Assembly: GCA_030710605.1 (NCBI GenBank)
Contig: CP092872.1
Coordinates: 11,591,691 to 11,655,690 of the forward strand
DNA from: Cordylochernes scorpioides
Taxonomy: Eukaryota; Arthropoda; Arachnida; Pseudoscorpiones; Chernetidae
Length of the DNA: 64,000 nt
Reading direction: 5' to 3'
Positions 9,895 to 63,714 of this stretch are shown piece after piece. Under the pieces are notes generated by a model. It was not told the origin of the DNA, made no database searches, and saw only the letters and a program-made list of their open reading frames with translations. Made by a program: the position numbers and the translations under genes. Each line of letters begins with the position of its first letter. Position 1 is the first letter of the stretch.

Positions 9895-9960
9895 GCGGTC
9901 TGATAGATTAAATTGGCGAAACCACTATGAGGATTCACCATTGATGAGCCAACACCTCTC
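9895..9960 (+). ncRNA. permuted hammerhead-like motif, decayed
   Basis: GCGGT-C, TTGGC-GAA and GCCAA are kept, but the core reads TTGATGA and the stem III partner ACCAC. It follows directly after a SINE tail. Confidence 0.35.
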
Positions 9961-11588: not shown

Positions 11589-11654
11589 GAGAGGGCTTGG
11601 CTCATCAGTAGTGAACCCTCTCAGCGGTTTCGCCAAATTAATCTCTAGAACGCT
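11589..11654 (-). ncRNA. permuted hammerhead-like motif, subfamily B, one stem III mismatch
   Basis: CTGATGA at 11,602-11,608 and GAA at 11,629-11,631 are intact. The stem III strand reads GCGTT instead of GCGGT, giving one mismatch and a UUC cleavage triplet. The repeat is interrupted just downstream (in plus coordinates) by a SINE with a 15-bp target duplication. Confidence 0.5.
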
Positions 11655-11846: not shown

Positions 11847-12142
11847 TGTATTGGACCGGTTTTGTTATATACCCTGCATTTTCTATGGAAGGCAGCTTAG
11901 GGGTGTTTAAGGAACTATGGACATAAGCTTATAGGTCTGTAGAGGTACATACATATAATTTCAAGGTATTGCATCGAGCAAAGCTCTTCGGCAAAATATG
12001 TTTTCATAACCAATATATATTAGTAAATTAAACTTTATTGCCATCTATCGTTAAAATTTTACACAAATAAATTTACTGGCAATGCGTTTCTTTCTAAATA
12101 TCATCAAATATTATCTCTACAGACCTTACTGCAATGATATGA

Positions 12143-12208
12143 GCGGTCTAGAGATTAATTTGGCGAAACCGCTGAGAGGGTTCACTACTGATGAGCCAAG
12201 CCCTCTCA
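12143..12208 (+). ncRNA. permuted hammerhead-like motif, subfamily B, intact
   Basis: GCGGT-C (stem III strand, NUH site GTC at 12,146-12,148), TAG (stem I), TTGGC-GAA-ACCGC (stem II, GAA at 12,165-12,167, stem III), then CTA-CTGATGA-GCCAA (stem I, core at 12,188-12,194, stem II), all closed by GAGAGGG / CCCTCTC. All hammerhead core positions are present, including the G10.1-C11.1 and A15.1-U16.1 pairs. The strand order differs from known hammerhead types. Cleavage is inferred, not shown. Confidence 0.55.
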
Positions 12209-19884: not shown

Positions 19885-20135
19885 TATTTAAAAAACGTAA
19901 GATTCTTTTTGAAATTAAACAATTTCTACTGCCCTTACTGCAATGGAAAAATTAATGGGAGGGTCTGGTTCATCAGTGGTGAACCCTCCAAGCGGTTTCG
20001 CCAGTTTAATCTACCATACCGCTGTTATATTGCATTTTTGGAACTTCCTTTTATAGTGATACTGTTGATGGACTCTTGGAATGGGTATTTTAGAAGAAAT
20101 ATGGACATAAGCTCTGAGGACAGTAGAATTACATA
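19885..20135 (-). repeat. ribozyme repeat, subfamily A
   Basis: One unit with the diagnostic CTACTGCCCTTACTGCAATG segment, the ribozyme motif and the ATGGACATAAGCTCTGAGGA tail, which is related to the tail of subfamily B. Confidence 0.65.
19956..20023 (-). ncRNA. permuted hammerhead-like motif, subfamily A
   Basis: NUH is GTA (20,017-20,019), stem I TGGT/ACCA, GAA at 19,997-19,999, CTGATGA at 19,970-19,976. Stem II has one mismatch (ACCAG for GCCAG) and the closing stem one mismatch. Relative to subfamily B, stems I, II and the closing stem each carry a paired base change. Confidence 0.5.
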
Positions 20136-22827: not shown

Positions 22828-22898
22828 ATCGGTATGGTAGATTAAACTGGCAAAACAGCCAGGAGGGTTTACCACTGATGAGCCAGGCCCTCTCATTA
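22828..22898 (+). ncRNA. permuted hammerhead-like motif, subfamily A, decayed
   Basis: ACCA-CTGATGA-GCCAG and TGGT are kept, but GAA has become AAA and stem III is mismatched, so the core is broken. The ~290-base surrounding unit (22,690-22,990) is otherwise recognisable. Confidence 0.4.
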
Positions 22899-25868: not shown

Positions 25869-27492
25869 TGACACCTCTTGGCTTCCCCCTCACCTAAGTA
25901 ACATTTGTCACACAATTGTCAACACACACATGTCCTCAAATACCATATACACCCTGTATATAGAGGCAGAAAACACTACTATTATGAACTTGCCTTATTT
26001 ACAGGCTTCCCCCTCACCTGAGTAACATTTGTCACACATTTATTACACACCCATGTCCTCAAATACCATATACATCTTGTATATAGAGACAGAAAACCCT
26101 ACTATTATGTATGAACTTGCCTTATTTACAGGCTTCCCCCTCACCTAAGTAACATTTGTCACACAATTGTCAACACACGCATGTCCTCAAATACCATATA
26201 CACCTTGTATATAGAGACAGAAAACCCTACTATTATGTATGAACTTGCCTTATTTACAGGCTTCCCCCTCACCTAAGTAACATTTGTCACACAATTGTCA
26301 ACACACACATGTCCTCAAATACCATATACACCCTGTATATAGAGACAGAAAACCCTACTATTATGTATGAACTTGCCTTATTTACAGGCTTCCCCCTCAC
26401 CTAAGTAACATTTGTCACACAATTGTCAACACACACATGTCCTCAAATACCATATACACCCTGTATATAGAGACAGAAAACCCTACTATTATGTATGAAC
26501 TTGCCTTATTTACAGGCTTCCCCCTCGCCTAAGTAACATTTGTCACACATTTGTCAGCACACACATGTCCTCAAATACCATATACACCCTGTATATAGAG
26601 ACAGAAAACCCTACTATTATGTATGAACTTGCCTTATTTACAGGCTTCCCCCTCGCCTAAGTAACATTTGTCACACAATTGTCAACACACACATGTCCTC
26701 AAATACCATATACACCCTGTATATAGAGACAGAAAACCCTACTATTATGTATGAACTTGCCTTATTTACAGGCTTCCCCCTCACCTAAGTAACATTTGTC
26801 ACACATTTGTCAGCACACACATGTCCTCAAATACCATATACACCTTGTATATAGAGACAGAAAACCCTACTATTATGTATGAACTTGCCTTATTTACAGG
26901 CTTCCCCCTCACCTAAGTAACATTTGTCACACAATTGTCAACACACACATGTCCTCAAATACCATATACACCTTGTATATAGAGACAGAAAACCCTACTA
27001 TTATGTATGAACTTGCCTTATTTACAGGCTTCCCCCTCACCTAAGTAACATTTGTCACACAATTGTCAACACACACATGTCCTCAAATACCATATACACC
27101 TTGTATATAGAGACAGAAAACCCTACTATTATGTATGAACTTGCCTTATTTACAGGCTTCCCCCTCACCTAAGTAACATTTGTCACACAATTGTCAACAC
27201 ACACATGTCCTCAAATACCATATACACCCTGTATATAGAGACAGAAAACCCTACTATTATGTATGAACTTGCCTTATTTACAGGCTTCCCCCTCACCTAA
27301 GTAACATTTGTCACACAATTGTCAACACACACATGTCCTCAAATACCATATACACCTTGTATATAGAGACAGAAAACCCTACTATTATGTATGAACTTGC
27401 CTAATTTACAGGCTTCCCCCTCACCTAAGTAACATTTGTCACACAATTGTCAACACACACATGTCCTTTAATACCATATACACCTTGTATAT
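25869..27492 (+). repeat. 128-bp minisatellite, left part
   Basis: About 12.5 nearly identical direct units of 128 bp with GGCTTCCCCCTCACCTAAGT as landmark. It starts about 10 bases after the exon 2 donor. Each unit carries a TTATTTACAG that resembles a splice acceptor. The array is split by the Gypsy insertion and resumes at 32,707. Confidence 0.93.
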
Positions 27493-27837
27493 TGTTACAT
27501 CATGATTAATGGCGTATTTCTTATATTATTTTTAATATATTTGAAATTTAAATTATATATTTATTTATTTATTTTTATATAAAATATTCTATATTTATTT
27601 AAAACACAGATTATTTAGATTGTCATTATTTGTATTTAGGTACACGTGTGACTTCACTGCTCTCTTTGATGTGAGAAAATAAATAAAGGATTCTGGTGGC
27701 TACATAAAGTAGACTTATCTCATTATTCCCTTTTATAAATTTGTAGGATGGTTGAAACACGCTCTGGTAAGATGCAAGACCCAGCACAGGAGAGAATCAA
27801 GGCTGAAGAGTCTGCCAAGCCGCAACCTGGTGCAACA
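27493..27837 (+). repeat. 5' LTR of Gypsy element
   Basis: Begins TGTTACATCATG and ends GGTGCAACA, near-identical to 32,359-32,706. A TATA-like tract near 27,574 and an AATAAA near 27,680 lie inside it. Unusually the gag start codon (27,748) is 90 bases before the LTR end, so about the first 30 Gag residues are LTR-encoded. A TGG-beginning candidate primer-binding site follows two bases after the LTR; I could not match it to a particular tRNA. Confidence 0.93.
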
Positions 27838-28911
27838 ATTGGTAGAGATGCTAGTTCCGACCCAGTTGTCCTGAATCCCAACATCGACATCCCCAAGTAT
27901 GATGGAACAGAAGACCCTCGCCCATGGATTGAATCTCTTGAAGAAATTGGCTTCCTGTACCATTGGGCAGACTACATTATCTCCCGTTATGCTGCCATGA
28001 ATATGATTGATAGCGCCAAAACCTGGCTGAACCTACACAAAGTAAGTTTCACCAGCTGGGAAAATTTCAAGAGCCGCCTAGTTGAGGATTTTGCCTCAGA
28101 CGCCAACAAAGAAGAAATGAGGATGAGATTAAACAGGATACAACAGTGGAATGAACCTGCAATCAGGTTCGCAGAGGATATCCTTGTACTGTGCAACAAG
28201 GTCGACCCCCAAATGGAAGAAGAGACTAAAATAAACTGGGTTATTGGAGGGTTAAAGAAAGAATACTCTTTTGCCCTTCACCTAAACCCTCCTAAAAATA
28301 CCAATGAACTTCTAGAAATTTGTAAAAAGCTGGATTTGTTCGAAAAGAATTACCAAGAACGTGCAGAAAAATCAAAAGCTCTTTATAATGGACCACGCTC
28401 TCCTCGTCCCCATCATCAAGAGCAATGGAAGAATGCTACGTCGTTCAGAAGACCATATCAGAACACCTCCAAGCCCCAGCCCCCCGCTCCGAGGTACTAC
28501 CAGAACACCTCCAAGCCCCAGGCCCCCACTCCGAGGTATTACCAGAACAAGCCTCTGCCCCAGGTATCTGCCCCTAGACGATCTTACACTCCCAATCCTG
28601 AGCCAAAACCGGTCTACCCAAGTAAAACATACAATAAGAATCCAAATTCAAATAGGAATAGGACAGAAGACGGGAGACCAATATGTTTCAAGTGTAACAA
28701 GCCAGGACACGTAGCGCGGTATTGCAGAGTCAGGTTTGTAAGAATTGTGGAAGAGGACCCCATAGTTACACAAGACAAGGTCGAAGAAGAAATCCGAATG
28801 GATAATGGAACTCAGAAGTCGAGACCTCTGCTCTACTCTGACGTAAGTAATAGCCCGTACTCGAGTATCCCTACAAGGAATAGATATGCTGCATTAGAAG
28901 ATTTAAACTAA
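27748..28911 (+). CDS. gag: Gag polyprotein of Gypsy element
   Basis: A 387-residue structural protein that would form the intracellular particle and package the RNA. It starts MVETRSGKMQDP inside the LTR. An N-terminal retrotransposon-Gag capsid-like region (about residues 50-200, with W and charged helices) is followed by a Pro/Tyr/Gln-rich linker (about 220-300). A CCHC zinc knuckle lies at residues 313-326 (C-x2-C-x4-H-x4-C). The stop codon directly follows the heptamer TTTAAAC. The ATG at 27,748 is the first in frame and is conserved in the other copies at 62,566 and 44,981. Confidence 0.93.
   Translation: MVETRSGKMQDPAQERIKAEESAKPQPGATIGRDASSDPVVLNPNIDIPKYDGTEDPRPWIESLEEIGFLYHWADYIISRYAAMNMIDSAKTWLNLHKVSFTSWENFKSRLVEDFASDANKEEMRMRLNRIQQWNEPAIRFAEDILVLCNKVDPQMEEETKINWVIGGLKKEYSFALHLNPPKNTNELLEICKKLDLFEKNYQERAEKSKALYNGPRSPRPHHQEQWKNATSFRRPYQNTSKPQPPAPRYYQNTSKPQAPTPRYYQNKPLPQVSAPRRSYTPNPEPKPVYPSKTYNKNPNSNRNRTEDGRPICFKCNKPGHVARYCRVRFVRIVEEDPIVTQDKVEEEIRMDNGTQKSRPLLYSDVSNSPYSSIPTRNRYAALEDLN
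28902..28908 (+). promoter_or_regulatory. -1 ribosomal frameshift slip site (gag-pol)
   Basis: T TTA AAC in the Gag frame, immediately before the TAA stop. Pol is in the -1 frame and is open from this point. This is the X-XXY-YYZ class of slip site. The same heptamer, frame and stop position occur at 63,705-63,711 in the second, diverged copy. A downstream stimulatory RNA structure was not identified by eye. Confidence 0.75.
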
Positions 28912-31900
28912 ACATCGCGTCTGAGTCCGTCAATCAAAGCAAGTCGACCATAAATGGAATTAAAAAGTTAGACCCCAAATATAAAATTAACATTAACGTG
29001 GATAGAATCGGTATCTGCGAAGCTTTGATTGATACAGGCGCCGATCTTTCAGTGGTCGACCTTAGTACAGCTCTTAACACAGGTCTTGAAATAATAAATC
29101 CTGATAAAATGTGCTCCGGACCCGATGGCAAAGAATTAGATATCGTAGGAAATATTATTTTAAATATAAAATTTGATGACAAAACAATTACACATCAATT
29201 TGTGATAATGAGAACACATTTGCGAATATTTATACTTGGACGTGATTTTCTTAAGAAAATGAACGCAAAAATTGATTGTCAGCGTGAAATAATCAAATAT
29301 GACTTGACAGAAAATCGTGACGTAATCAAATATCAACAGAAGAAAATAAAAAGTGCAAAGGATGCCATTATACCAGAACTTTCTATTAAATTGATTAAGG
29401 CATTGGTAGAAACAGAGGATGGAGAATATATTATCGAAGAGAGCAGCAAAATGTTTCAAACAAATGGACTTCGTCTAGCAAGAAGCTTGATCAATGTTAT
29501 AAATAGGGAAACACACATCTGGATAACTAATCCGTATCCTCGACCGTTAAAAATAATGAAAAACCAAACATTGGCTTTTGGAAGTAGTCCAGCGAAAATA
29601 AATGTGAGTCGAGAAAGAGAGGTAGAAAAGAACGAAGAACCTAGATTCCAAATAAACGAAAATCTTTCACCAAAGGAACAGAAGGAGTTAAAACAAGTTT
29701 TAGAAAGGTATGGAGATCTTTTTTCATCGAGATTAGGGAGAACCAATTTGGCAAAACATCGGATAGACACAGAAGACGCGAAGCCAATTAAACACAAGCC
29801 TTACCGGGTAAGTGCTAAAGAACGAGATATTATAAAAGAGCAAATTGACGAGATGCTTACAGAAGGCATAATTAGGCCATCTTCTAGCCCCTGGTCTTTT
29901 CCAGTAATATTGGTCAAGAAGCGAGATGGTAAATACAGATTTTGTGTGGACTACAGAAAACTGAATAATGTCACAGTAAAAGATGTCTATCCGATCCCTA
30001 GAATAGACGAAGTTATGGATACTCTCCAAGGATCTACACACTTCTCAGCAATAGACCTCAGATCTGGATATTGGCAAGTTGAAGTCGAAGAAAGAGACAA
30101 AGAGAAAACAGCTTTCACTACAGCGCATGGATTATATGAATTCAACGTGATGCCTTTTGGACTTTGTAACGCGCCTGCTACCTTTGAGAGAAATATGGAG
30201 AATATGCTTGGAAATCTGAGATGGCAAATTTGTTTGTGTTATCTGGATGATGTTATCATATATAGCCCGGATTTTCCAACGCACCTCAAAAGACTTGAAG
30301 CTGTTTTTAGATGTTTTCGTGAATCTAATTTAAGGTTAAACGACAAAAAATGCCGATTTGCTTTTGAAGAATTGGAGATTCTCGGCTATATAACGAGCAA
30401 ACATGGTATAAAACCCGCGGAACATAACATCAAAGCTGTCAGAAATTTTCCTCGGCCCAAAAAGGTCAAAGAAGTACAATCCTTTTTGGGAATGTGTTCA
30501 TATTATAGAAAATTTATCAAAGACTTTTCAAAAATTGCTGACCCTTTGACCAACCTTATAAAAAAAAGTGTATCATTTACCTGGACAGAAAGACAAGAGG
30601 AAGCGTTTCAAACCCTAAAAACAGCACTATTAAGTCCACCAATTTTAGGTCACTTCAATCCAAATGCACCTACTTATGTTCATACTGATGCGTCCAACAT
30701 CGGCATAGGTGCAACACTTGTCCAAGACATTGGTGGTGAAGAGAAGGTGATCTCATATTTGAGTCGTACCCTAAGTAAAGCGGAGCAAAATTATTCAACC
30801 ACTGAAAAAGAATGTCTGGCCGTTGTCTGGTCAATGTCAAAATTACGACCCTACCTTTATGGAAGACACTTTAAAATAGTAACAGACCATCACGCCTTAT
30901 GCTGGCTCAAAAACTTGAAGGATCCAACAGGTCGATTGGCAAGATGGGCATTGAAAATTCAAGAATATGACTTCGATATAATACATAAATCGGGAAAGAA
31001 GCATCTGGACGCCGATGGCTTATCTAGGGGGCCCTTACCAGAAACTGATTGGGATGAGGATTTTGAAAGGCTATTTTTAAATCAAATAACAGACGAAGAG
31101 GATAAATTTATCGAAAGTGTTAAGAAAAACCTTAATGGAAGCAGGCGATCAATTGCGCAAAACTTTAAAGAAGAAGATGGATGCCTCTTTAAGAAAAACC
31201 CGAACCCTGAAGGCAGGGCGTGGTTGCTTGTGGTTCCAGAGAATAAAAAGAGAGAAATTATGAAAGAATATCACAATCATATGTCGAATGGCCATCTGGG
31301 CGTCGCCAGAACCATGTACCGAATAAAGAGTAAATACTTTTGGCCATCCATGCTAAAGGATGTCTCAGAATTCGTTAAAACGTGTCACCTTTGCCAAAGT
31401 AGGAAAGGCTCAAACCAATTACCTTCTGGACTACTACAGCCCATCCCCCCAGCCAACATTCCTTTCGAAAGAATTGGAATTGACTTTGTTGGTCCACTAC
31501 CATCTACGAAAAACAGGAAAAAATGGATAATCGTGCTGACGGACTACTACACTAGATATGCAGAAACAAGAGCAGTCTCGGAAGCAACAGTGAAAGAAGT
31601 TTCTAAATTTCTAGTAGAGGATATTTTTCTTCGGCACGGAGCCCCACAATATCTTATTAGTGACAGAGGCTCTCAATTTACCAGTAATTTAATGAAAGAG
31701 GTGATGAAAACGTGCAAGATTAAACATTGCTTCACAACGAGCTATCATCCCCAGACTAATGGATTGACAGAGCGGTTAAATAGAACATTGATCAATATGC
31801 TCAGTATGTATGTGAACACTGATCAGAAAAATTGGGACGAGATACTCCCATTCATCACTCACGCTTACAATACTACAATTCAGGAAACCACAGGATATTC

Positions 31901-32375
31901 TCCCTTTTTCCTGATGTTTGGAAGAGAACCCACGTCTCTTTTGGACGACAGGAATATCTCGGTGGACATTGACAAAGATGATTATGATGAATACATAAAA
32001 CATCACTTAGACAAAATGAACAGAACAAGAAAATTAGTTATTAACAACACAATAAAGACTCAAGAAAGAATGAAAAAGAACTATGACAAGAAACACATGG
32101 AAAGAAGCTACGAACCAGGAGAATTAGTAGCAGTTTGGACACCAATTAGGAAAATAGGAAAGTGTGAGAAACTACTGAGAAAATATTTTGGCCCATATAG
32201 AATATTAAAGAAGCTGTCTAACGTAAATTACTTAATTGAGCCAAAAGATAATCCTGGCCAAGACCCATTGATTGTCCATGTCTCAAGACTCAAACCCTAT
32301 TTTGAGAGAATTGATGAGGTAACTCACGAGGACGTGACGACCTCTGGAGAGGGGGAGGTGTTACATCATGATTAA
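28908..32375 (+). CDS. pol: Pol polyprotein of Gypsy element
   Basis: Expressed by -1 frameshift from gag, about 1,155 residues. In order: aspartic protease (DTGA, about residue 40), reverse transcriptase with the YLDD catalytic box near 445, RNase H with an HTDAS segment near 590, integrase with an HHCC zinc domain (about 787-834) and the D,D,E residues near 858, 918 and 953, and a GPY/F-like module (FGPYR) near 1,094. This PR-RT-RH-IN order defines Ty3/Gypsy. No stop or frameshift is visible, so the copy may be functional. The purine tract is coding, and the last five residues and the stop are inside the 3' LTR. Confidence 0.94.
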   Translation, partial: LNIASESVNQSKSTINGIKKLDPKYKININVDRIGICEALIDTGADLSVVDLSTALNTGLEIINPDKMCSGPDGKELDIVGNIILNIKFDDKTITHQFVIMRTHLRIFILGRDFLKKMNAKIDCQREIIKYDLTENRDVIKYQQKKIKSAKDAIIPELSIKLIKALVETEDGEYIIEESSKMFQTNGLRLARSLINVINRETHIWITNPYPRPLKIMKNQTLAFGSSPAKINVSREREVEKNEEPRFQINENLSPKEQKELKQVLERYGDLFSSRLGRTNLAKHRIDTEDAKPIKHKPYRVSAKERDIIKEQIDEMLTEGIIRPSSSPWSFPVILVKKRDGKYRFCVDYRKLNNVTVKDVYPIPRIDEVMDTLQGSTHFSAIDLRSGYWQVEVEERDKEKTAFTTAHGLYEFNVMPFGLCNAPATFERNMENMLGNLRWQICLCYLDDVIIYSPDFPTHLKRLEAVFRCFRESNLRLNDKKCRFAFEELEILGYITSKHGIKPAEHNIKAVRNFPRPKKVKEVQSFLGMCSYYRKFIKDFSKIADPLTNLIKKSVSFTWTERQEEAFQTLKTALLSPPILGHFNPNAPTYVHTDASNIGIGATLVQDIGGEEKVISYLSRTLSKAEQNYSTTEKECLAVVWSMSKLRPYLYGRHFKIVTDHHALCWLKNLKDPTGRLARWALKIQEYDFDIIHKSGKKHLDADGLSRGPLPETDWDEDFERLFLNQITDEEDKFIESVKKNLNGSRRSIAQNFKEEDGCLFKKNPNPEGRAWLLVVPENKKREIMKEYHNHMSNGHLGVARTMYRIKSKYFWPSMLKDVSEFVKTCHLCQSRKGSNQLPSGLLQPIPPANIPFERIGIDFVGPLPSTKNRKKWIIVLTDYYTRYAETRAVSEATVKEVSKFLVEDIFLRHGAPQYLISDRGSQFTSNLMKEVMKTCKIKHCFTTSYHPQTNGLTERLNRTLINMLSMYVNTDQKNWDEILPFITHAYNTTIQETTGYSPFFLMFGREPTSLLDDRNISVDIDKDDYDEYIKHHLDKMNRTRKLVINNTIKTQERMKKNYDKKHMERSYEPGELVAVWTPIRKIGKCEKLLRKYFGPYRILKKLSNVNYLIEPKDNPGQDPLIVHVSRLKPYFERIDEVTHEDVTTSGEGEVLHHD

Positions 32376-32706: not shown

Positions 32707-33012
32707 ATATAGAGACAGAAAACCCTACTATTATGTATGAACTTGCCTAATTTACAGGCTTCCCCCTCACCTAAGTAACATTTGTCACACAATTGTCAAC
32801 ACACACATGTCCTTTAATACCATATACATCCTGTATATAGAGACAGAAAACCCTACTATTATGTATGAACTTGCCTTATTTACAGGCTTCCCCCTCACCT
32901 AAGTAACAATTGTCACACAATTGTCAACACACACGTGTCCTCAAATAGCATATACACCCTGTATATAGAGACAGAAAACCCTACTAATAAGTATGAACTT
33001 GCCTAATTTACA
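32707..33012 (+). repeat. 128-bp minisatellite, right part
   Basis: Continuation of the array after the Gypsy 3' LTR, about 2.4 units, ending about 45 bases before exon 3. Confidence 0.92.
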
Positions 33013-33057
33013 TACCCGCCTTCCAGCATATGCAAATAAACACGTGTTTTGTGACAG

Positions 33058-33166
33058 ATGTTCGCGATGTGTCACCAGCCAATGGGCGTGTAACTGGTGT
33101 CTACACGACAGCGTGTGCACACACTCACACTCCAACTGTACCTACACGGTCATCACAGGGGAGAAC
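33058..33166 (+). CDS. plexin exon 3 (PSI2 domain)
   Basis: This exon encodes the cysteine-rich PSI2 domain. The pattern CSRCVTSQWACNWCLHDSVC followed by a further cysteine has the PSI CxxC...CxWC...C spacing. The acceptor GTGACAG gives a phase-2 start that joins exon 2 into an HKTCSRC sequence; the donor AAC|GTAAGT ends in phase 0. An upstream acceptor at 33,021-33,026 also opens the frame but in the wrong phase for exon 2. The exon lies about 350 bases after the 3' LTR of the Gypsy insertion and just after the last minisatellite copy, so the retrotransposon sits in the intron before it. Confidence 0.9.
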
Positions 33167-33169
33167 GTA

Positions 33170-35140
33170 AGTCTACAGCCGTACAATGTTGTTGGTTGAT
33201 CTACACTCTCTGTAGGCGTCACTACAGTACAGTAATATCCCATCGGAGACCATAGAAACATGGGCTCTCCTCGAGTTGGTCTCTTATCAGATATCATGCA
33301 TGCCAAGTCATTAAATATAAAGCAATAACGCGCCATCTTTATATAGCGAAAGAAAACATTAAGACGTGAATGTTGCTTTCACACATAAAACAAACTTCTA
33401 CTATCCTTACTGCGATGAAAAATATTGGGAGGGTTTGGCTCATAAGTGGTGAACCCTCTCAGCGGTTTCGATAATTCAAACCCATTTCATTCAAACCTAA
33501 ACAGAATCTCTGATAAGGGACCACCTCCAGGAGAGACCCGGTGTAGCCATGTATTTTTAGCTCATTTTATTTATATAAATATGAACATTTTGTCGGCAAG
33601 AAATCTATATATATAAAAATCAATGTTTGTATGTTTGTTTGTTTGTATGTCCGGTATACAAATTCGCAGTAGTTCACTAATTCAAAACAAAATTTCCATA
33701 CATAGGTAAAAAATATGGGGAAGACGATAGGCTATTTTAAAAAATATATGAATCAATAATTAAAACTATATATTCAAATTATTCTACTTAGCTCACGAAC
33801 AGCGCCATCTATCAAAGATTAGATTAAATTATGCTGATGCAAACAAATAGTTAATGCTAATAACAAACAATTATAAAAAAAATGTATTATCTAAATATAT
33901 ATCACTCGGGTAGTTATGCACACGGGTCAATCCAAGGGCGAAGCCCGGGTCACCCGTATAGTTGATCTATAAAAATAAAGGTCGCCTCTCCCTTCAAAAC
34001 TAAGCGCCATCTATTGACCGTCTCTACAAACTAGCGGACAAATGTCGGTGACAAAGCCACAACACCAGCTTTGGGAAACTGAGAAACGTCCATCTAGAGA
34101 CCATGGTTTCGGACTAATGGCCCTCGTCAGTCTAGGGAGAACTTTATTCCATGAGATTTACAAGGGATCTAATGAAATCTTCACAATCTTCCAAAGAGGT
34201 GTTTAGCTAGTATAGAATGGCTATTTTTTATTTTATTCATTATTAATTCTAAAAATTGTAAAACGACATTTGAAATACCATCCCGCATGTGTTTCTTTAC
34301 AGCGAAAATTCAAAATTTATTTCAAGGAGAAATAATCGTTATTTATCCTTGAAATAAATTTTGAATTTTCGTTGAAAAGAAACACATGCGGGATAGTATT
34401 TCAAATGTCGTTTTACAATCACAAGCCGCATTATATTATATTGTATTATAAATTCTAAAAATGTTGACCATTTTTTTAAGATGCCATTGTCTTAATTTAA
34501 ATGAATATGTTTTTCTTCTAGAGAGAGAGAGAGTTAGTTCCTAAAAAAACAATAATATAAATATATTACATTTAACATTCACACAATAATATAGAATTAA
34601 CAAACTTTATATTAACTGTGAGATAATTTATTGTATATTTCACTCAAGAGCTAAAATATAAACACTTGATAATAAATATTTTAAATTTTCTCAATAAAAA
34701 ACTGCATTTAGTACCCTAGAAGCTGAAGGGAGGTTCACTATCTTAGCACTTCTAGGGATCCCAATTCCTCTAGTTTGACAGATCTAAGGACATCAGACTT
34801 TCGGATTGGTACAAACAACAGAGCTGTGGTTTAGACAACTCAGCCATTGTATGGTGGTCTTAGTCCGTCCAGGAGCCTAGACCATGGGCCGGCAAACTTT
34901 TGATTCGGCAGAGTCAAAAATTACAATTTACAAAATTTCTAAGTTTTTAAAGAGCCACAGAATATTTTCTTGCCAACAATAAATAGTACTCACATAAATA
35001 ATATTTACGTATGGAACTATATAAAGAGCTTCACATCCAAAGAGCCGCATGTGGCTGGCGAACGGCAGTTTACCTACCCCTGGTTTAGACCAACTGACCC
35101 GTTGTTGAAGCCTCCACGTATCCTAGGAAGCCTAATATAT
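33170..35140. other. intron, repeats only
   Basis: A truncated ribozyme-repeat copy (33,395-33,470), the Helitron-like repeat (33,600-33,960), a MITE (33,980-34,140) and the SINE palindrome (34,258-34,428). A unique-looking region at 34,690-35,110 has no supported gene. Confidence 0.6.
34258..34428. repeat. near-perfect palindrome of SINE-2 body
   Basis: TAAAACGACATTTGAAATAC… to its complement, about 85 bases per arm, centred near 34,343. The arms are the 3' body of the repeat at 14,820, 44,400, 45,650 and 50,270, without the tRNA-like head. Confidence 0.85.
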
Positions 35141-35147
35141 ATTATAG

Positions 35148-35215
35148 CGGTATGGTAGATTGCGCCTGCGAAACCACTGGGAGAGTTCACTACTGATGAG
35201 CCAGGCCCTCCCATT
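35148..35215 (+). ncRNA. permuted hammerhead-like motif, subfamily A, decayed
   Basis: CTGATGA and GAA are kept and the NUH is GTA, but stem III has a mismatch (ACCAC) and the stem II strand before GAA reads CCTGC. Stem I is partly changed. Probably inactive. Confidence 0.4.
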
Positions 35216-35373
35216 ATTTTATCATTATAGTAAGGGCAGTAGAAAATTGATTTATTTTGAAAATAATCAAACGTGTCAAAAATAGTTCGCATTTCTTATA
35301 ACAGATGGCGCGCTATGATTCTTTTTTAAATAAATCAATTTTATTCTGTTCTCTTACTGCAATGATAAAATAA

Positions 35374-35441
35374 TGGGAGTGCCTGGCTCATCAGTGGTAA
35401 ATCCTCCCAGCGGTTTCGCCAGTTTAATCTACCATACCGCT
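35374..35441 (-). ncRNA. permuted hammerhead-like motif, subfamily A
   Basis: NUH GTA at 35,435-35,437, GAA at 35,415-35,417, CTGATGA at 35,388-35,394, stems I (TGGT/ACCA), II (CTGGC/GCCAG) and III (GCGGT/ACCGC) intact; the closing stem has two changes. It forms a head-to-head pair with the copy at 35,148. Confidence 0.55.
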
Positions 35442-35573
35442 GTAATATTGCATTTCTCGGGTTTCCTTTTATACTGATACTGAAGTTAGACTCTTGGAAA
35501 GGGTATTTTGAATGATCTATTTGAGAAAGGCCTTAAGGAAAGTAGAAATACATATAATGATAAATATATAAAT

Positions 35574-36023
35574 ACACTCATGGAAAAAAGCATAAGGAAG
35601 TTTCTTATTCTGATGTCGCCAGGTGTCTGTTTTTTTTTTTTTACTGGAGACAGAGGCAATTTTGTTCACACTTAGTTATCTCGTGTATCTTCAATAAAAT
35701 TCACTGTGTTTCAAATATCTTTCAGAGTTATTGTGTCAATCCAGATATACATGCTAAAAGGTACAACTTCCTTAAGTTTTGTCCATGAGTGTATCTTTCA
35801 GAGTTATTGTCTCAATCCAGATATACATGCTAAAGGGTACAACTTCCTTAAGTTTTGTCCATGAGTGTATCTTTCAGAGTTATTGTGTAAATCCCGATAT
35901 ACATGCTAAAAGGTACAACTTCCTTAAGATTTGTCCATGAGTGTATCTTTCAGAGTTATTGTCTGAATCCCGATATACATGCCTAAAAGGTACAACTTTC
36001 TTAAGTTTTGTCCATGAGTGTAC
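35574..36023. repeat. MITE of the same family with about four 78-bp units
   Basis: Left end ACACTCATGGAAAAAAGCAT, right end TTTTGTCCATGAGTGTA. Shares the T-run, the CACACTTAGTTATCTCGTGT segment and the 78-bp end repeat with 37,225-38,271. Related copies: 6,530-6,895; 20,850-21,052; 52,331-52,545. Confidence 0.82.
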
Positions 36024-38271: not shown

Positions 38272-38488
38272 GATTTAATAACATGAGTTATGAGTATTTT
38301 GTGTGCGTTTATGCATGTGTTATGTGTGATTGTATTAAAAGCGTTTAAAAACTATAATTTTTTTTATCGAATAACACACACAATTATATTAAAACTTTAC
38401 ACAAATAAATTTACTGGCTATGCGTTTCTTTTAAATATCATCAAATACAGACTCTACAGACCTTACTGCAATGATATGAGTTATTGAA

Positions 38489-38556
38489 TGAGAGGGCTTG
38501 GCTCATCAGTAGTGAACCCTCTCAGCGGTTTCGCCAAATTAATCTCTAGACCGCTC
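38489..38556 (-). ncRNA. permuted hammerhead-like motif, subfamily B, intact
   Basis: Same structure as 12,143-12,208 on the minus strand: NUH (GTC) at 38,549-38,551, GAA at 38,530-38,532, CTGATGA at 38,503-38,509, with intact stems I, II, III and the closing stem. It sits in the first unit of a 377-bp direct repeat. Confidence 0.55.
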
Positions 38557-38865
38557 TACTATTGTATTGGACTGGTTTTGTTATATACCCTGCCTTTTCT
38601 ATGGAAGGCAGCTTAGGGGTGTTTAGTGAACTATGGACATAAGCTTATAGGTCTGTAGAGGTACATACATATAATTTCAAGTTATTGCATCGAGCAAAGC
38701 TCTTCCGCAAAATATGTTTTCATAACCAATATATATTAGTAAATTAAATTTATTGCCATCTATCGTTAAAACTTTACACAAATAAATTTACTGGCAATGC
38801 GTTTCTTTTAAATATCATCAAATATTATCTCTACAGACCTTACTGCAATGATATGAGTTATTGAA

Positions 38866-38932
38866 TGAGAGGGCTTGGCTCATCAGTAGTGAACCCTCTC
38901 AGCGGTTTCGCCAAATTAATCTCTAGACCGCT
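38866..38932 (-). ncRNA. permuted hammerhead-like motif, subfamily B, intact
   Basis: Second unit of the same direct repeat: NUH at 38,926-38,928, GAA at 38,907-38,909, CTGATGA at 38,880-38,886. The ribozyme region is identical to the first unit. Confidence 0.55.
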
Positions 38933-39077
38933 CTACTATTGTATTGGACTGGTTTTGTTATATTCCCTGCATTTTCTATGGAAGGCAGCTTAGGGGTGTT
39001 TAGTGAACTATGGACATAAGCTGCCTTCCATAGAAAATGCAGGGTATATAACAAAACCAGTCCAATACAATAGTAGA

Positions 39078-39143
39078 GCGGTCTAGAGATTAATTTGGCG
39101 AAACCGCTGAGAGGGTTCACTACTGATGAGCCAAGCCCTCTCA
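39078..39143 (+). ncRNA. permuted hammerhead-like motif, subfamily B, intact
   Basis: Inverted third copy in the 38.4-39.25 kb cluster: NUH at 39,081-39,083, GAA at 39,100-39,102, CTGATGA at 39,123-39,129, stems intact. Confidence 0.55.
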
Positions 39144-39539
39144 TTCAATAACTCATATCATTGCAGTAAGGTCTGTAGAGATAATATTTGATGATATTTA
39201 AAAGAAACGCATTGCCAGTAAATTTATTTGTGTAAAGTTTTAACGATAGATGGCAATAAATTTAATTTATTAACACACAATTATATGTTTAGATTATACC
39301 GCTCATACACAATAATATGGAACCGTTTATCTAGATAGAGGATAGTTGTTTGAAATTGTCGAGAGCGAAGACACACACATTTGTCAATGACGTAAAGTAA
39401 AAAGAAATAAATTCCAAATTTTGAATACTTCTCAATAAACATTTTAGTGAATATTTATTTTAGATCTTCCTTGACAAATACATCGTAAAGATAGATGCTG
39501 CCTGACCGCCAGCATTCATATTTCTTGAAAATAAAGATA

Positions 39540-40445: not shown

Positions 40446-43400
40446 CCTATATGGGTTGTGTTTGATAGTGACCTAAGAGAGACGCTTATGTATCAAGCCG
40501 GACTAAGAACAGACAACTGTGGGTACAGAACTATCACAACAGTTAAGACAGCATTCACACCAGTTTTACAGAAACATGTCTATATAGGTTGTGTTGTGTG
40601 GTGACCTAGGATAAAGTCAGCTATGTATCAATCCGGATTAAGAACATGTCAATGTATGTACAGAACCAACACAACAGTTTACCACAGCATTCACCTCAGT
40701 TTTACAGAAACATGTCTATGGTTGTGTTGTGTGGTGAGCTAGGATAAAGTCAGCTATGTATCAAGCCGGACTAAGAACATGTCAATGTATGTACAGAACT
40801 AACACAACAGTTTACCACAGCCTTCACCTCAGTTTTACAGAAACATGTCTATGGTTGTGTTGTGTGGTGACCTAGGATAAAGTCAGCTATGTATCAAGCC
40901 GGACAAAGAGCATGTCACTGTGGGTATAGAACCAACACAACAGTTTACCACAGCATTCACCTCAGTTTTACAGAAACATGTCTATGGTTGTGTTGTGTGG
41001 TGACCTAGGATAAAGTCAGCTATGTATCAAGCCGGACTAAGAGCATGTCACTGTGGGTATAGAACCAACACAACAGTTTACCACAGCATTCACCTCAGTT
41101 TTACAGAAACATGTCTATATAGGTTGTGTTGGATGGTGAGCTAGGAGAGACACCTATGTATCGAGCCGGACTAAGAACAGACAACTGTGGGTACAGAACT
41201 ATCACAGCAGTTTACCACAGCATTCACCTCAGTTTTACAGAAACATGTCTATATAGGTTGTGTTGGATGGTGAGCTAGGAGAGACACCTATGTATCAAGC
41301 CGGACTAAGAACAGACAACTGTGGGTACAGAACTATCACAGCAGTTTACCACAGCATTCACCTCAGTTTTACAGAAACATGTCTATATAGGTTGTGTTGG
41401 ATGGTGAGCTAGGAGAAGACACCTATGTATCGAGCCGGACTAAGAACAGACAACTGTGGGTACAGAACTATCACAACAGTTTACCACAGCATTCACCTCA
41501 GTTTTACAGAAACATGTCTATATAGGTTGTGTTGGATGGTGAGCTAGGAGAGACACCTATGTATCGAGCCGGACTAAGAACAGACAACTGTGGGTACAGA
41601 ACTATCACAACAGTTTACCACAGCATTCACCTCAGTTTTACAGAAACATGTCTATATAGGTTGTGTTGGATGGTGAGCTAGGATAAGACAGCTATGTATC
41701 GAGCCGGACTAAGAACAGACAACTGTGGGTACAGAACTATCACAACAGTTTACCACAGCATTCACCTCAGTTTTACAGAAACATGTCTATATAGGTTGTG
41801 TTGGATGGTGAGCTAGGAGAGACACCTATGTATCAAGCCGGACTAAGAACAGACAACTGTGGGTACAGAACTATCACAGCAGTTTACCACAGCATTCACC
41901 TCAGTTTTACAGAAACATGTCTATATAGGTTGTGTTGGATGGTGAGCTAGGAGAGACACCAATGTATCAAGCCGGACTAAGAACAGACAACTGTGGGTAC
42001 AGAACTATCACAGCAGTTTACCACAGCATTCACCTCAGTTTTACAGAAACATGTCTATATAGGTTGTGTTGGATGGTGAGCTAGGAGAGACACCAATGTA
42101 TCGAGCCGGACTAAGAGCATGTCACTGTGGGTATAGAACCAACACAACAGTTTACCACAGCCTTCACCTCAGTTTTACAGAAACATGTCTATGGTTGTGT
42201 TGTGTGGTGACCTAGGATAAAGTCAGCTATGTATCAAGCCGGACTAAGAGCATGTCACTGTGGGTATAGAACCAACACAACAGTTTACCACAGAATTCAC
42301 CTCAGTTTTACAGAAACATGTCTATGGTTGTGTTGTGTGGTGACCTAGGATAAAGTCAGCTATGTATCAAGCCGGACTAAGAACATGTCACTGTGGGTAT
42401 AGAACCAACACAACAGTTTACCACAGCCTTCACTTCAGTTTTACAGAAACATGTCTATATAGGTTGTGTTGTGTGGTGACCTAGGATAAAGACACCTATG
42501 TATCAAGCCGGACTAAGAGCATGTCACTGTGTGTATAGAACCAGCACAACAGTTACTACAGCATTCACCTCAGTTTTACAGAAACATGTCTATGGTTGTG
42601 TTGTGTGGTGACCTAGGATAAAGTCAGCTATGTATCAAGCCGGACTAAGAGCATGTCACTGTGGGTATAGAACCAGCACAACAGTTTACCACAGTCTTCA
42701 CCTCAGTTTTACAGAAACATGTCTATGGTTGTGTTGTGTGGTGAGCTAGGATAAAGTCAGCTATGTATCAAGCCGGACTAAGAACATGTCACTGTGGGTA
42801 TAGAACCAACACAACAGTTTACCACAGCATTCACCTCAGTTTTACAGAAACATGTCTATGGTTGTGTTGTGTGGTGACCTAGGATAAAGTCAGCTATGTA
42901 TCAAGCCGGACTAAGAGCATGTCACTGTGTGTATAGAACCAGCACAACAGTTACTACAGCATTCACCTCAGTTTTACAGAAACATGTCTATGGTTGTGTT
43001 GTGTGGTGAGCTAGGATAAAGTCAGCTATGTATCAAGCCGGACTAAGAGCATGTCACTGTGTGTATAGAACCAACACAACAGTTTACCACAGCCTTCACC
43101 TCAGTTTTACAGAAACATGTCTATGGTTGTGTTGTGTGGTGACCTAGGATAAAGTCAGCTATGTATCAAGCCGGACTAAGAGCATGTCACTGTGGGTATA
43201 GAACCAACACAACAGTTTACCACAGCATTCACCTCAGTTTTACAGAAACATGTCTATGGTTGTGTTGTGTGGTGAGCTAGGATAAAGTCAGCTATGTATC
43301 AAGCCGGACTAAGAGCATGTCACTGTGGGTATAGAACCAGCACAACAGTTTACCACAGCATTCACCTCAGTTTTACAGAAACATGTCTATGGTTGTGTTG

Positions 43401-43863
43401 TGTGGTGAGCTAGGATAAAGTCAGCTATGTATCAAGCCGGACTAAGAACATGTCACTGTGGGTATAGAACCAACACAACAGTTTACCACAGCATTCACCT
43501 CAGTTTTACAGAAACATGTCTATGGTTGTGTTGTGTGGTGACCTAGGATAAAGTCAGCTATGTATCAAGCCGGACTAAGAGCATGTCACTGTGTGTATAG
43601 AACCAGCACAACAGTTACTACAGCATTCACCTCAGTTTTACAGAAACATGTCTATGGTTGTGTTGTGTGGTGACCTAGGATAAAGTCAGCTATGTATCAA
43701 GCCGGACTAAGAGCATGTCACTGTGTGTATAGAACCAACACAACAGTTTACCACAGCATTCACCTCAGTTTTACAGAAACATGTCTATGGTTGTGTTGTG
43801 TGGTGACCTAGGATAAAGTCAGCTATGTATCAAGCCGGACTAAGAACATGTCAATGTGTACAG
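40446..43863 (+). repeat. 133-137-bp minisatellite carrying exon 4 acceptor
   Basis: About 25 direct units with landmark CAGTTTTACAGAAACATGTC. Two variant classes alternate in blocks (with ATATAGG / GAGACACC versus GGTTGTGTTGTGTG / GTCAGC), which suggests block-wise expansion. The final partial unit supplies the acceptor and first bases of plexin exon 4. Confidence 0.95.
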
Positions 43864-43992
43864 AACCAACACAGCAGCCTGATCAAGGGACGCCAACACT
43901 GCCCCAGTATCCGAACAGAAGAACAAGTTTACCTGGCCGCAGGAGAGGACCGAGAGATCGCTCTGCATGTCAAGAACGTTCCCAACCAGCTG
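43864..43992 (+). CDS. plexin exon 4 (PSI2 end to IPT2 start)
   Basis: The frame encodes IKGRQHCPSIRTEEQVYLAA and then HVKNVPNQL, matching the plexin stretch from the last PSI2 cysteine into IPT2 (the KNLP-like turn). It begins in phase 0 after GTGTACAG and ends in phase 0 before GTAGGA, 43 codons. The first 14 bases of the exon and its acceptor belong to the last, partial unit of the 133-137-bp minisatellite that fills 40.4-43.86 kb. The repeat therefore carries 25 or so imperfect copies of this exon's 3' splice site. Confidence 0.85.
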
Positions 43993-48911: not shown

Positions 48912-50223
48912 CAGTCTAGCCATAAATTCTGTTACAAACGATTTTATAAATTAAATGATTAAGCACAAAAACTAATGGAATTTAAATACATATTTTATTA
49001 GGCAATAGAACATATAGATTTTAAATATATACAATCATTCAAAATGTCCTCCCTTATTTTTGACAGAGGATCTCAAACGTTCGGGCCACTGATCTATGGC
49101 GGCACGCACCTTTTCTAAGGGTATTTCTTTCATTGCTCTCACTAATGCTGATTTCAATTGATCCAAATTATGATATCTTTCAGAGCACACCTTCTCCTCT
49201 AAATATGCCCACAAACTGTAATTAGGGGGTTTAAATCAGGGTTCCAGAGGGCCATTCATTGGCCTTTAAGAACTCCGGAACATTCGTCTCCAACCATTGT
49301 TGAGTTGACTTAGCTTTGTGAGCATGAGCTGAATCTTGTTGAAATATCCAATGTTCTCCATTAAACATTTTTGTATTCAGAGGCTTTAATATTTGTTCCA
49401 AAATATATTCTTGATAGTTTTTAGCTGTAGTTTTTACCCCTATGGCACAGAAGTGGAGATCTGTTACACCTTGGTAGCTAACTCCCCACCAAACCATGAC
49501 AGAAGAAGGATGGTGACTTTTTTCAAGTCTCCTGACTTTCAAAGAAGCTTCTAGAGAGCTACGAGCATATATCCTATCATTCTGACGATTAATATTTTCT
49601 CTCGACAGTGAAAATTTTCTCGTCTGTGAAAAGGATTCTCTCATGCCACCGACCATCATGCCGTGCCAACAACATTTTTGATCTAACCCTTCTAATATCT
49701 CTAAGAGCAGGGGTTATCAAATGACCTGTGCGTCGTTTGAAAGCTCTCAGTCCAAGGTCTTCGTTGATTCCCCTGGAAATGGTTCTTGGAGCTAAATTCA
49801 TCTGCTTTGCTAAGATCTTTTGTTTGCGGCGTGGATTTCGACGAATTCTTTCGCAAATGGCTTTTATAGTTGCTTGCGTTCGTTGCACGTGCAGTCGACC
49901 AGATCTTTCAAGGTCATTAATAGTGCCAAACTTGTTGAACCTTTCAATGGTTCGATAAACAAATTGACGCGTAATAATCAAATTTTGTAAAAGTTTAAAA
50001 TGGATGAAGGACTTTGGCCTACCTTGTGTAAGGCTATTACAGCTATACGTTTTGCTTTAACACCCCAATCCATTATCAAAGAACAAATATATTCCGATTT
50101 TTTTTCTAAACACGTGTGCATGAGATATTCAAATAACAACTACCGTATTTTGAATACTTCACACGGTCAAATTAAAATTTTTATCACTGATTTGGTTTTG
50201 TAACAATATTTATGGCTAGACTA
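48912..50223 (-). mobile_element. Tc1/mariner DD37D element with inverted repeats
   Basis: Terminal inverted repeats of about 27 bp (AGTCTAGCCATAAAT... at 48,913 and its complement ending near 50,222) bracket a transposase gene on the minus strand. The TA target flank is visible on the right; the outermost bases of the left end are altered. It lies in the intron between plexin exons 6 and 7. Confidence 0.88.
49035..50073 (-). pseudogene. broken DD37D mariner transposase
   Basis: Reads from an ATG at 50,073 (MDWGVKAKRIAVIALHK) to a GGHFE end at 49,035, about 340 residues, the usual length. The N-terminal HTH region has a frameshift near 49,985. The catalytic domain is open through FTDEKIF (first Asp) and FQQDSAHAHKAK (second Asp). 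Two further frameshifts near 49,220-49,235 break the frame just before the third catalytic residue, which appears to be Asn instead of Asp. The spacing of 37 residues between the second and third catalytic positions places it in the DD37D (maT-like) group. It is non-functional as it stands. Confidence 0.88.
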
Positions 50224-61081: not shown

Positions 61082-62240
61082 CTCACCTGGGTGGAGTCAA
61101 ATTGAAGTCACGCCCCTAGTTAGTCTGTGGCACTGTGTAACTTATCCCCAGCTGATTGAAGCCACACCCCTACTTAGTCTGTAGCCAAGTATAACTTGTC
61201 AACAAGCCCGCCTGGGCGGGGTCAGATTTAAGCTCCGCCTCTTCTTAGCCTGTGAAGCCGTATAACTTGTCAACATGCCCGCCTGGGTGGGGTCAGATTG
61301 AAGCTCCGCCTCTTCTTAGCCTGTAAAGCCGTGTAACTTGTCAACATGCCTACCTAGGCGAGATCAGATTGAAGCTCCGCCTCTTCTTAGCCTGTGAAGC
61401 CGTGTAACTTGTCAACATGCCCATCTGGGCGGGGTCAGATTGAAGCTCCTTTTCTTCTTAGCCTGTGAAGCCGTATAACTTGTCAACATGCCTACCTAGG
61501 CGAGATCAGATTGAAGCTACGCCTCTTCTTAGCCTGTGAAGCCGTGTAACTTGTCAACATGCCTAACTAGGCGAGATCAGATTGAAGCTACGCCTCTTCT
61601 TAGCCTGTGAAGCCGTGTAACTTGTCAACATGCCTATCTGGGCGGGGTGAGATTGAAGCTACGCCTCTTCTTAGCCTGTGAAGCCGTGTAACTTGTCAAC
61701 ATGCCCATCTGGGCGGGGTCAGATTGAAGTTCCGCCTCTTCTTAGCCTGTGAAGCCGTATAACTTGTCAACATGCCTATCTGGGCGGGATCAGATTGAAG
61801 CTCCGCCTCTTCTTAGCCTGTGAAGCCATATAACTTGTCAACATGCCTATCTGGGCGGGGTGAGATTGAAGCTACGCCTCTTCTTAGCCTGTGAAGCCGT
61901 GTAACTTGTCAACATGCCTATCTGGGCGGGGTGAAATTGAAGCTACGCCTCTTCTTAGCCTGTGAAGCCGTATAACTTGTCAACATGCCTATCTGGACGA
62001 GATCAGATTGAAGCTCCGCTTCTTCTTAGCCTGTGAAGCCATGAAACTTGTCAACATGCCTACTTAGGCGGGATCAGTTTGAAGCTACACCTCTTCTTAG
62101 CCTGTAAAGCCGTGTAGCTTGTCAACATGCCTACCTAGGCGGGATCAGTTTGAAGCTACGCCTCTTCTTAGCCTGTGAAGCCATGTAACTTGTCAATATG
62201 CCCATTTGGGCGAGGTCAGATTGAAGCCACATTTCCAATC
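61082..62240 (+). repeat. 71-bp minisatellite after exon 13 donor
   Basis: About 16 units with landmark CCTCTTCTTAGCCTGTGAAG. The first, most diverged units begin about 10 bases after the donor at 61,072. Units become more homogeneous downstream. Confidence 0.93.
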
Positions 62241-62315: not shown

Positions 62316-62655
62316 TGTTACATCATGATTAATGGCGTATTTCTTATATTAGTTTTAATATATTTGAAATTTAAATTATATATTTATTTATTTTTATATA
62401 AAATATTCTATGATATTTATTTAAAACAGATTATTAATTTATCATCATTTGTATTTAGGTACACTGTGACTTCACTGCTCTCTTTGATGTGAGAAAATAA
62501 AAAAAGGATTCTGGTGGCTACTTAAAGAAGACTTATCTCGTTATTCCCTTTTATAAATTTCTAGGATGGTTGAAACACGCTCTGGTAAGATGCAGGACCC
62601 AGCACAGGAGAGAATCCAGGCTGAGGAGTCTGCCAAGCCGCAACCTGGTGCAACA
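62316..62655 (+). repeat. 5' LTR of second Gypsy copy
   Basis: TGTTACATCATG to GGTGCAACA, about 340 bp, highly similar to the LTRs at 27,493 and 32,359 with small indels. It encodes the Gag N-terminus as in the first copy. Confidence 0.92.
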
Positions 62656-63714
62656 ATTGGTAGAGATGCTAGTTCCGACCCAGTTGTCCTGAATCCCAAC
62701 ATCGACATCCCCAAGTATGATGGAACGGAAGACCCTCGCCCATGGATTGAATCTCTTGAAGAAATTGGCTTCTTGTACCATTGGGCAGACTACATTATCT
62801 CTCGTTATGCCGCCATGAACATGACGGGAAGCGCTAAAACCTGGTTGAATTTACACAAAGCTAGTTTCACGAGCTGGGAAAATATTAAAATCCGCCTCAT
62901 TCAGGATTTTTCTTTGGACGCGAATAAAGAAGAACTCAGAATGAAGCTCAACAGAATGCAACACTGGAATGAACCAGCAATCAGGTTCGCGGAAGACATT
63001 CTAGTGTTGTGCAACAAGGTTGACCTCGCAATGGAAGAAGAAACAAAAATTGAACATGTTATTGGAGGACTGAAAAAAGAGTACTCATTCGCGCTCTACC
63101 TGAACCCTCCTAAAACGACCGATGACCTTCTTGTCGTGTGCAAGAAAATGGATTATTTTGAAAAGAAGTATCGGGAACGTGTGGAGAAATCCAGAAACCT
63201 ATATAACGGTCCACGCTATTCTAGACCCCAACAACAATCGAGGTACGTGCCGCCGACTGCCGCACGAAACTACCAGACCACTTCCAGGCCCCAAGCCCCT
63301 GTTTCCAATAATTACAAGAACGACTCCGCTCCTACCCCCAGACAGTATCGAAACAACTTTCCCCAGCCCTCTACCCCTAGACGTCCTTATAATCCTAACT
63401 TTGTGCCGAAACCAAACCTTCAGAGAAACACTTACAATAAAAGCCAAGAAGTGAGCAAAAATAGGACGGAAGATGGAAGACCAATCTGCTTTAAATGTAA
63501 CAAGCCAGGGCACGTGGCCCGTTATTGTAGGGTCAAGTTTATAAGAATCCTAGAAGAGGATCCAGCAGATACCCAAGAGAAGGTCGAAGAAAAATGCCAA
63601 ATGAATGAAACATCAGAGAAATCAGGACCTCGGCTTTATGCTGATGTATGTCATAGCACACAGACAAATATTCCTACCCGGAATAGATATTCCGTGTTGG
63701 AAGATTTAAACTAA
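62566..63714 (+). CDS. gag: Gag polyprotein, second Gypsy copy
   Basis: A 382-residue Gag homologous to the one at 27,748. The first ~90 residues are nearly identical, while the central and Pro/Gln-rich parts diverge by substitution and indel. The zinc knuckle (CFKCNKPGHVARYC) is fully conserved. The frame is intact and ends at the same TTTAAAC-TAA junction. The sharp contrast between a near-identical 5' part and a diverged 3' part suggests recombination or gene conversion in the 5' region. Confidence 0.92.
   Translation: MVETRSGKMQDPAQERIQAEESAKPQPGATIGRDASSDPVVLNPNIDIPKYDGTEDPRPWIESLEEIGFLYHWADYIISRYAAMNMTGSAKTWLNLHKASFTSWENIKIRLIQDFSLDANKEELRMKLNRMQHWNEPAIRFAEDILVLCNKVDLAMEEETKIEHVIGGLKKEYSFALYLNPPKTTDDLLVVCKKMDYFEKKYRERVEKSRNLYNGPRYSRPQQQSRYVPPTAARNYQTTSRPQAPVSNNYKNDSAPTPRQYRNNFPQPSTPRRPYNPNFVPKPNLQRNTYNKSQEVSKNRTEDGRPICFKCNKPGHVARYCRVKFIRILEEDPADTQEKVEEKCQMNETSEKSGPRLYADVCHSTQTNIPTRNRYSVLEDLN

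Follow-up and report, generated by a model that had tools for sequence, protein, structure and literature searches.

A hammerhead motif in the genome of the pseudoscorpion Cordylochernes scorpioides probably represents a type-SGC ribozyme, carried at the 5′ end of its transcript by a non-autonomous retroelement that a Penelope-like element (PLE) mobilises. Judged from sequence, we place the probability of this reading at about 0.72. The motif at positions 12143-12208 of the window (the whole 64-kb stretch of DNA analysed) was confirmed to be real and carries all hammerhead core nucleotides, its blocks following the order S (cleavage site), G (GAA), C (CUGANGA). This topology has been described before; what is new is its setting in a retroelement of an animal genome.

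Strand order and core of the motif

Every string that the initial annotation had claimed for the motif was found in place (Table 1). In hammerhead numbering, we take block S of this copy to be GCGGU-C-UAG (U16.1, H17, stem I), block G to be UUGGC-GAA-ACCGC and block C to be CUA-CUGAUGA-GCCAA. Block C is enclosed by a fourth helix, UGAGAGGG/CCCUCUCA. By direct reading of the 12143 copy, GAGAGGG occupies 12174-12180 and CCCTCTC 12201-12207; the helix proposed from these strings is present around block C, but the supposed 'enclosing stem' corresponds to the type-SGC helix that joins stems I and II.

Table 1. Hammerhead copies and associated features in the 64-kb window.
Feature	Position	Strand	Remarks
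Intact type-SGC hammerhead, subfamily A	12143-12208	+	Descriptor match; predicted cut between 12148 and 12149
Block S	12143-12151	+	Stem III 5′ strand GCGGT 12143-12147; H17 = C 12148; stem I 5′ strand TAG 12149-12151
Linker between stems I and II	12152-12159	+	AGATTAAT
Block G	12160-12172	+	Stem II 3′ strand TTGGC 12160-12164; GAA 12165-12167; stem III 3′ strand ACCGC 12168-12172
Block C	12185-12199	+	Stem I 3′ strand CTA 12185-12187; CTGATGA 12188-12194; stem II 5′ strand GCCAA 12195-12199
Closing helix around block C	12173-12208	+	TGAGAGGG/CCCTCTCA, 12173-12180 with 12201-12208; corresponds to the type-SGC stem I-II joining helix
Insertion with two A copies in inverted arms	11486-12332		Copies 11589-11653 (minus) and 12143-12208 (plus); flanking repeat AAACTACGAGT
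A copy	11589-11653	−	One stem III base changed
Insertion, two arms head to head	38389-39273		Minus arm 634 nt long, exceeding one 378-bp unit, and a plus arm; flanking repeat ACACACAATTATAT (14 bp)
Intact A copy	38490-38554	−	Strict descriptor
Intact A copy	38867-38931	−	Strict descriptor; 377 bp from the 38490-38554 copy
TATATAA box	39045-39051	+	33 nt upstream of stem III of the 39078 copy
Intact A copy	39078-39143	+	Strict descriptor
Intact B copy	35375-35440	−	Strict descriptor; cut site GCGGTA, stem II CTGGC/GCCAG
C-type copy	9895-9960	+	Core changed
B copy	19957-20022	−	G10.1 changed to A
Decayed B copy	22829-22894	+	
Decayed B copy	35147-35212	+	

A strict descriptor (S-G-C order, zero mismatch, 3/4/4 bp for stems I/II/III) matched five intact copies in the window, against 0 across 200 dinucleotide shuffles. 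As had been claimed, the core (CUGANGA, GAA, NUH, G10.1-C11.1, A15.1-U16.1) is complete in all five. A scan of the window for all six block orders returned the same five SGC copies and one type I site, with 0 in 100 shuffles. No Rfam 15 hammerhead model matched anywhere in the window at the gathering score, nor in 38300-39300 or 33000-36000 at E values up to 10; the microRNA-like Rfam matches in the window lay on inverted repeats and were discarded. Pseudoknot-free folding of subfamily A recovered stem III and the closing helix and missed the crossing stems. Loop-loop complementarity, compared with shuffles, was no better in A (19%) and weak in B (3.5%), and energy is no proof of the fold. The single pattern match among the viral_contigs (L001) fell in a phage-like gene region and was set aside as a chance match.

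The initial annotation knew of no hammerhead of this topology, but the S-G-C order had already been described and assayed: Eckert et al. 2023 named it the type-SGC hammerhead and reported 583 predicted sequences (PMC10085705). In the account given there, five tested candidates cleaved at the predicted bond, a G mutation abolished cleavage and, for SGC-3, compensatory mutations rescued all four helices, among them an extra helix joining stems I and II. The motif described here shares with HRIMA-1 and its variants the S-G-C order, all core nucleotides, stems I-III and the helix that joins the far sides of stems I and II and nearly abuts stem III (PMC10085705). The stem I-II linker, typically 3 nt in HRIMA-1 according to the same report, is 8-9 nt here with a 3-bp stem I, and shrinks to approximately 5 nt if stem I is extended over a mismatch. 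The setting also differs. The published sequences came from metatranscriptomes and were linked to hairpin ribozymes, with none reported from genomes of known organisms in the cited sections and their role left open (PMC10085705), whereas the present copies lie in the genomic DNA of a named animal, within a retroelement. Among the titles and abstract openings of the open-licence PMC literature, no further paper on the SGC permutation was found besides PMC10085705.

It had also been suggested that the fold might form between neighbouring units or molecules. A hammerhead formed only in this way, without a pseudoknot, is in our estimation very improbable. Subfamily A is indeed tandem, and the classic order would arise if S1 and S3 of one unit combined with S2 of the following unit; however, the motif is kept in single copies and the closing helix suits an SGC monomer. 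Moreover, because single SGC units cleaved in the published in vitro assays (PMC10085705), no such inter-unit or intermolecular fold is needed.

Outside the SGC copies, an intact classic type I (CGS) hammerhead was observed at 34088-34137 (−), reading CTAGA-CTGACGA-GGGC...GTCC-GAA-ACCATGGT-C-TCTAG. Its stem III is palindromic and very short, as in the minimal PLE hammerheads. The site was found in 0 of 100 shuffles and gave no Rfam match at E values up to 10.

Subfamilies and compensatory changes

The host assembly (2.62 Gb, 24 contigs) was searched with the pattern TGGCGAAACCGC-N15-CTGATGAGCCA, an exact G+C-block core, which counts cores rather than whole ribozymes; it occurred 56,702 times, against 0 for the reversed control. 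With a spacing of 12-14, the core occurred 819 times (control 0). From the collected loci, 136 of 157 motif placements were kept (248 before identical contexts were dropped), 87 of them distinct. Of these, 85 were aligned; the copy at 2440 of the window and L059:324 were omitted, their 5′ part not being homologous.

The copies sort into at least three subfamilies, A, B and C. As claimed earlier, A and B differ by compensatory changes in stem I, stem II and the closing helix, and C proved intermediate between them. Between the motif references of the three subfamilies there are eight differing sites plus one gap. Three complete compensations, at stem I pair 2 (A-U/G-C), stem II pair 1 (U-A/C-G) and closing-helix pair 2 (A-U/G-C), account for six of these sites, leaving H17 (C or A, both allowed) and one linker base. 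The chance of at least three compensations was 2.5e-6 to 6.5e-5 by simulation under four settings of 400,000 draws each, the lowest value corresponding to a single draw.

Over the 85 copies, 93.9% of cells were paired, compared with 39-59% when the partners were slid, and two-sided changes numbered 86 cells against 34.8 in shuffles. The count of pairs with a two-sided change, by contrast, was not above shuffles, 247 of 500 reaching the same value in this alignment. Lineage-level change was confined to one pair in each of three helices (stem I, stem II and the joining helix); stem III had none, with 95.3% of its cells paired in the 85 copies, and stem I pair 3 was A-C in 7 of 25 distinct C copies. 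The covariation is a matter of few clean events rather than many: of the covariation expected across collected copies, the three lineage-level compensations stood, while the number of pairs changed on both sides did not exceed shuffles and stem III contributed nothing.

Arms, arrays and target sites of the element

Subfamily A forms tandem arrays with a period of 372-378 bp and a unit GC content of 33.6%; in one locus (L062), 13 exact motif copies lay in an array that reached the locus edge. No regular tandem array was found among the 30 B loci examined, and regular arrays were not seen for the abundant subfamilies B and C. The 378-bp A unit has no ORF, carries the SGC block order only, with no type I hammerhead, and its 378-nt circular fold is ordinary (z −1.13).

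In total, 22 A insertions were parsed, with 38 A arms entered by hand and overlapping loci merged. Two or more arms were present in 16 insertions; in every one of these the arms met head to head and their 3′ region pointed outward. For 13 of 15 arm pairs, one end lay at unit position 149-169 and the partner's at 175-200; L018 and L063b departed from this pattern. Thirteen arms exceeded one unit and ran through the cut site, and arm junctions often shared 1-6 bases. Ten of the 20 insertions examined had direct flanking repeats of 8-14 bp; in mismatched flanks, repeats of 8 bp or longer occurred in 3.2%.

The head-to-head inverted arms and the missing ORF would also fit a fold-back DNA transposon, or a MITE, with inverted repeats that look like a hammerhead only by coincidence. 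This explanation we regard as scarcely credible, given the 0 of 200 shuffles, the compensations at hammerhead pairs, the variable inner junctions, the multi-unit arms and the 30-40 bp tail; a plain MITE was set aside on account of the multi-unit arms and the 3′ tail.

The arrangement suggests instead that the copies are probably a non-autonomous retroelement moved by a PLE. As described for the Poseidon PLE of Anolis (Frangieh et al. 2024), the element cuts and extends both target strands, and its reverse transcription starts internally at two sites, the interval between them appearing as an optional 30-40 bp tail of genomic copies (PMC11167929). The resemblance is close: common to Poseidon and the present element are this optional tail, two internal start sites (13 of 15 arm pairs here), extension of both target strands, AT-rich targets and a hammerhead within the element (PMC11167929). 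The Poseidon hammerhead is reported as type I, whereas here it is SGC in a 378-bp unit without an ORF; and while the cited sections report no RNA-seq reads ending at the Poseidon hammerhead cut (PMC11167929), genomic breakpoints fall on the cut here.

A further likeness is to the animal non-LTR retrozymes, which are described as short and AT-rich, made of non-coding tandem units a few hundred bp long that contain a hammerhead, with target-site repeats exceeding 4 bp and very high copy numbers (PMC7229834). Those hammerheads are type I in the report, unlike the SGC order found here, and subfamilies B and C were not seen in regular arrays; the survey of Cervera and de la Pena 2020 covered type I and III architectures only (PMC7229834). 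A retrozyme life cycle, in which tandem transcripts are cleaved to 378-nt monomers and circularised, would make circular RNA the main intermediate and linear 5′ trimming a side product. We consider such a cycle possible, at rather less than even odds. The 372-378 bp period of the arrays, the 13 arms longer than one unit that cross the cut site, and the match to animal retrozymes in size, tandem order and low GC (PMC7229834) speak for it. However, arrays are also obtainable from tandem transcripts, the 30 B loci are not regular tandem arrays, the fold of the unit is ordinary and linear ends exist at +1 and −8. Alongside PLE-driven mobilisation of the linear RNA, a retrozyme-like circular phase may run in parallel.

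Several other features were observed. The string ATAGATGGC, with 19 sites of the form A[TC]AGATGGC in the window, for example 4206 (+), 40386 (+), 34014 (−) and 39246 (+), is common to several families of repeats; the A element has it in its tail, and it is also present downstream of the type I hammerhead. It may be a common PLE 3′ signal. Gypsy-like LTR retrotransposon frames lie at 27748-32375 (+) and 62566-63714 (+), with close copies on many contigs of the genome, and long tandem arrays at 25880-27492 (period 128 bp), 40487-43877 (133 bp) and 61154-62227 (71 bp). Two overlapping frames at 49231-49981 (−) resemble a mariner/Tc1-type transposase. At another locus (L033), a frame beside a B copy resembles ribosomal protein L37A and is possibly a processed pseudogene.

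Predicted RNA start and breakpoints at the predicted cut

A TATA box was located 33 nt upstream of stem III in 49 of 70 A copies and 27 of 37 B copies; for C the distance was 43-46 nt, in 17 of 23 copies. In shuffled upstream stretches, a TATA box anywhere was found in 7-10%. Its position in A and B predicts that the RNA begins approximately 8 nt ahead of the cut. Five A arms out of 38 started exactly at −8 (p 6e-8), including the arm with the 12143 copy, which starts at 12141, although the A-arm query itself starts at −8 and may favour copies beginning there. One B locus (L128) begins at the same offset.

In this first collection, 0 of 38 A arms started at the cut, the loci having been fetched with a query containing block S. 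Samples picked by the G+C core alone, with no selection for block S, changed the picture. The first such set comprised 100 copies, 46 with an upstream break. After exclusion of 15 loci as point changes or indels, curated breaks fell at −1/+1 in 10 of 28, and in 6 of 23 under a strict count that also omitted L108, L161, L155 and L114, which were ambiguous or complex, and L176, whose junction is that of L177. In the second set of 40 copies, 19 were broken and 8 of these were excluded (L190, L201, L219, L194, L210 and L195 as point changes, indels or beyond −28; L187 and L215 at +13), leaving breaks at −1/+1 in 3 of 11. Together, the strict first set and the second set placed 9 of 34 breaks at the predicted cut (binomial p 3.3e-5), with the curation and the interval −28 to +12 chosen post hoc, after inspection of the data.

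A clear case was the junction of L088, where unit position 122 is joined to +1 with zero shared bases; clear breaks at the cut without shared bases were also seen in L089 (C) and L150 (A). Five B loci (L165, L181, L203, L207 and L211) showed CTACCA/TGGTAG junctions, most of them ambiguous by one base. One and the same bond was broken in subfamilies with differing bases, namely in A (L088, L150), C (L089) and B (the five loci above and L177). The L088 locus itself (G000:C1:3060600-3061500) is a tandem array of 122-bp period made of unit positions 1-122, its last unit extending to approximately 157. Either template jumping from a cut 5′ end or a duplication at a later time would account for this array.

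The clustering of breakpoints at the predicted cut is read as a trace of cleavage in vivo. Stalling of the reverse transcriptase or an end-joining preference, acting on RNA that had not been cut, would be another source of the peak, and we judge it unlikely. It draws on the B junctions, with their CCATGG palindromes and short inverted stubs, on the 1-6 common bases of many arm junctions and on the ambiguity of L108 and L161. Against it, A, B and C break at one bond despite different site bases, the junctions of L088, L089 and L150 have zero common bases, and a stalled enzyme should leave its mark to the 3′ side of the structure. Stalling or end-joining could nevertheless explain part of the +1 peak. 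The hammerhead core proposed at the outset, in a non-circular, pseudoknotted strand order and with compensatory change between subfamilies, was supported, and the genomic breakpoints also point to its predicted cut.

Under the preferred reading of a PLE-mobilised element with a 5′ hammerhead, RNA polymerase II would begin transcription approximately 8 nt upstream of the cut, at a point 31 nt past the first T of the TATA box. The transcript would fold as an SGC pseudoknot and cut itself after GCGGUH, losing the first 8 nt and keeping a 5′-OH end. The reverse transcriptase of a putative PLE partner would then initiate within the 3′ region, using both strands of a staggered break, and copy cut RNA as far as +1, uncut RNA as far as −8, and circular or multimeric RNA straight through the site; this last mode would give rise to the 378-bp arrays seen in subfamily A. 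Finally, the two cDNAs would be joined head to head. We regard as evenly balanced the proposal that SGC hammerheads are functional components of an animal retroelement: lying 8 nt downstream of a TATA-driven start, they would remove the leading 8 nt of the RNA together with the cap, the PLE reverse transcriptase would copy the trimmed RNA, and the genome would serve as a fossil record of in vivo cuts by a ribozyme that is not circularly permuted.

With a named animal and tens of thousands of DNA copies at hand, the role of the type-SGC hammerhead becomes testable. Tissue RNA can be probed for 5′-OH ends and circles, the subfamilies provide natural compensatory variants, and genomic breakpoints test cleavage in vivo without culture. 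If the reading is true, PLE-linked hammerheads, type I in the cited reports, would extend to the pseudoknotted order, which suggests that surveys limited to types I and III may have missed retrozymes.
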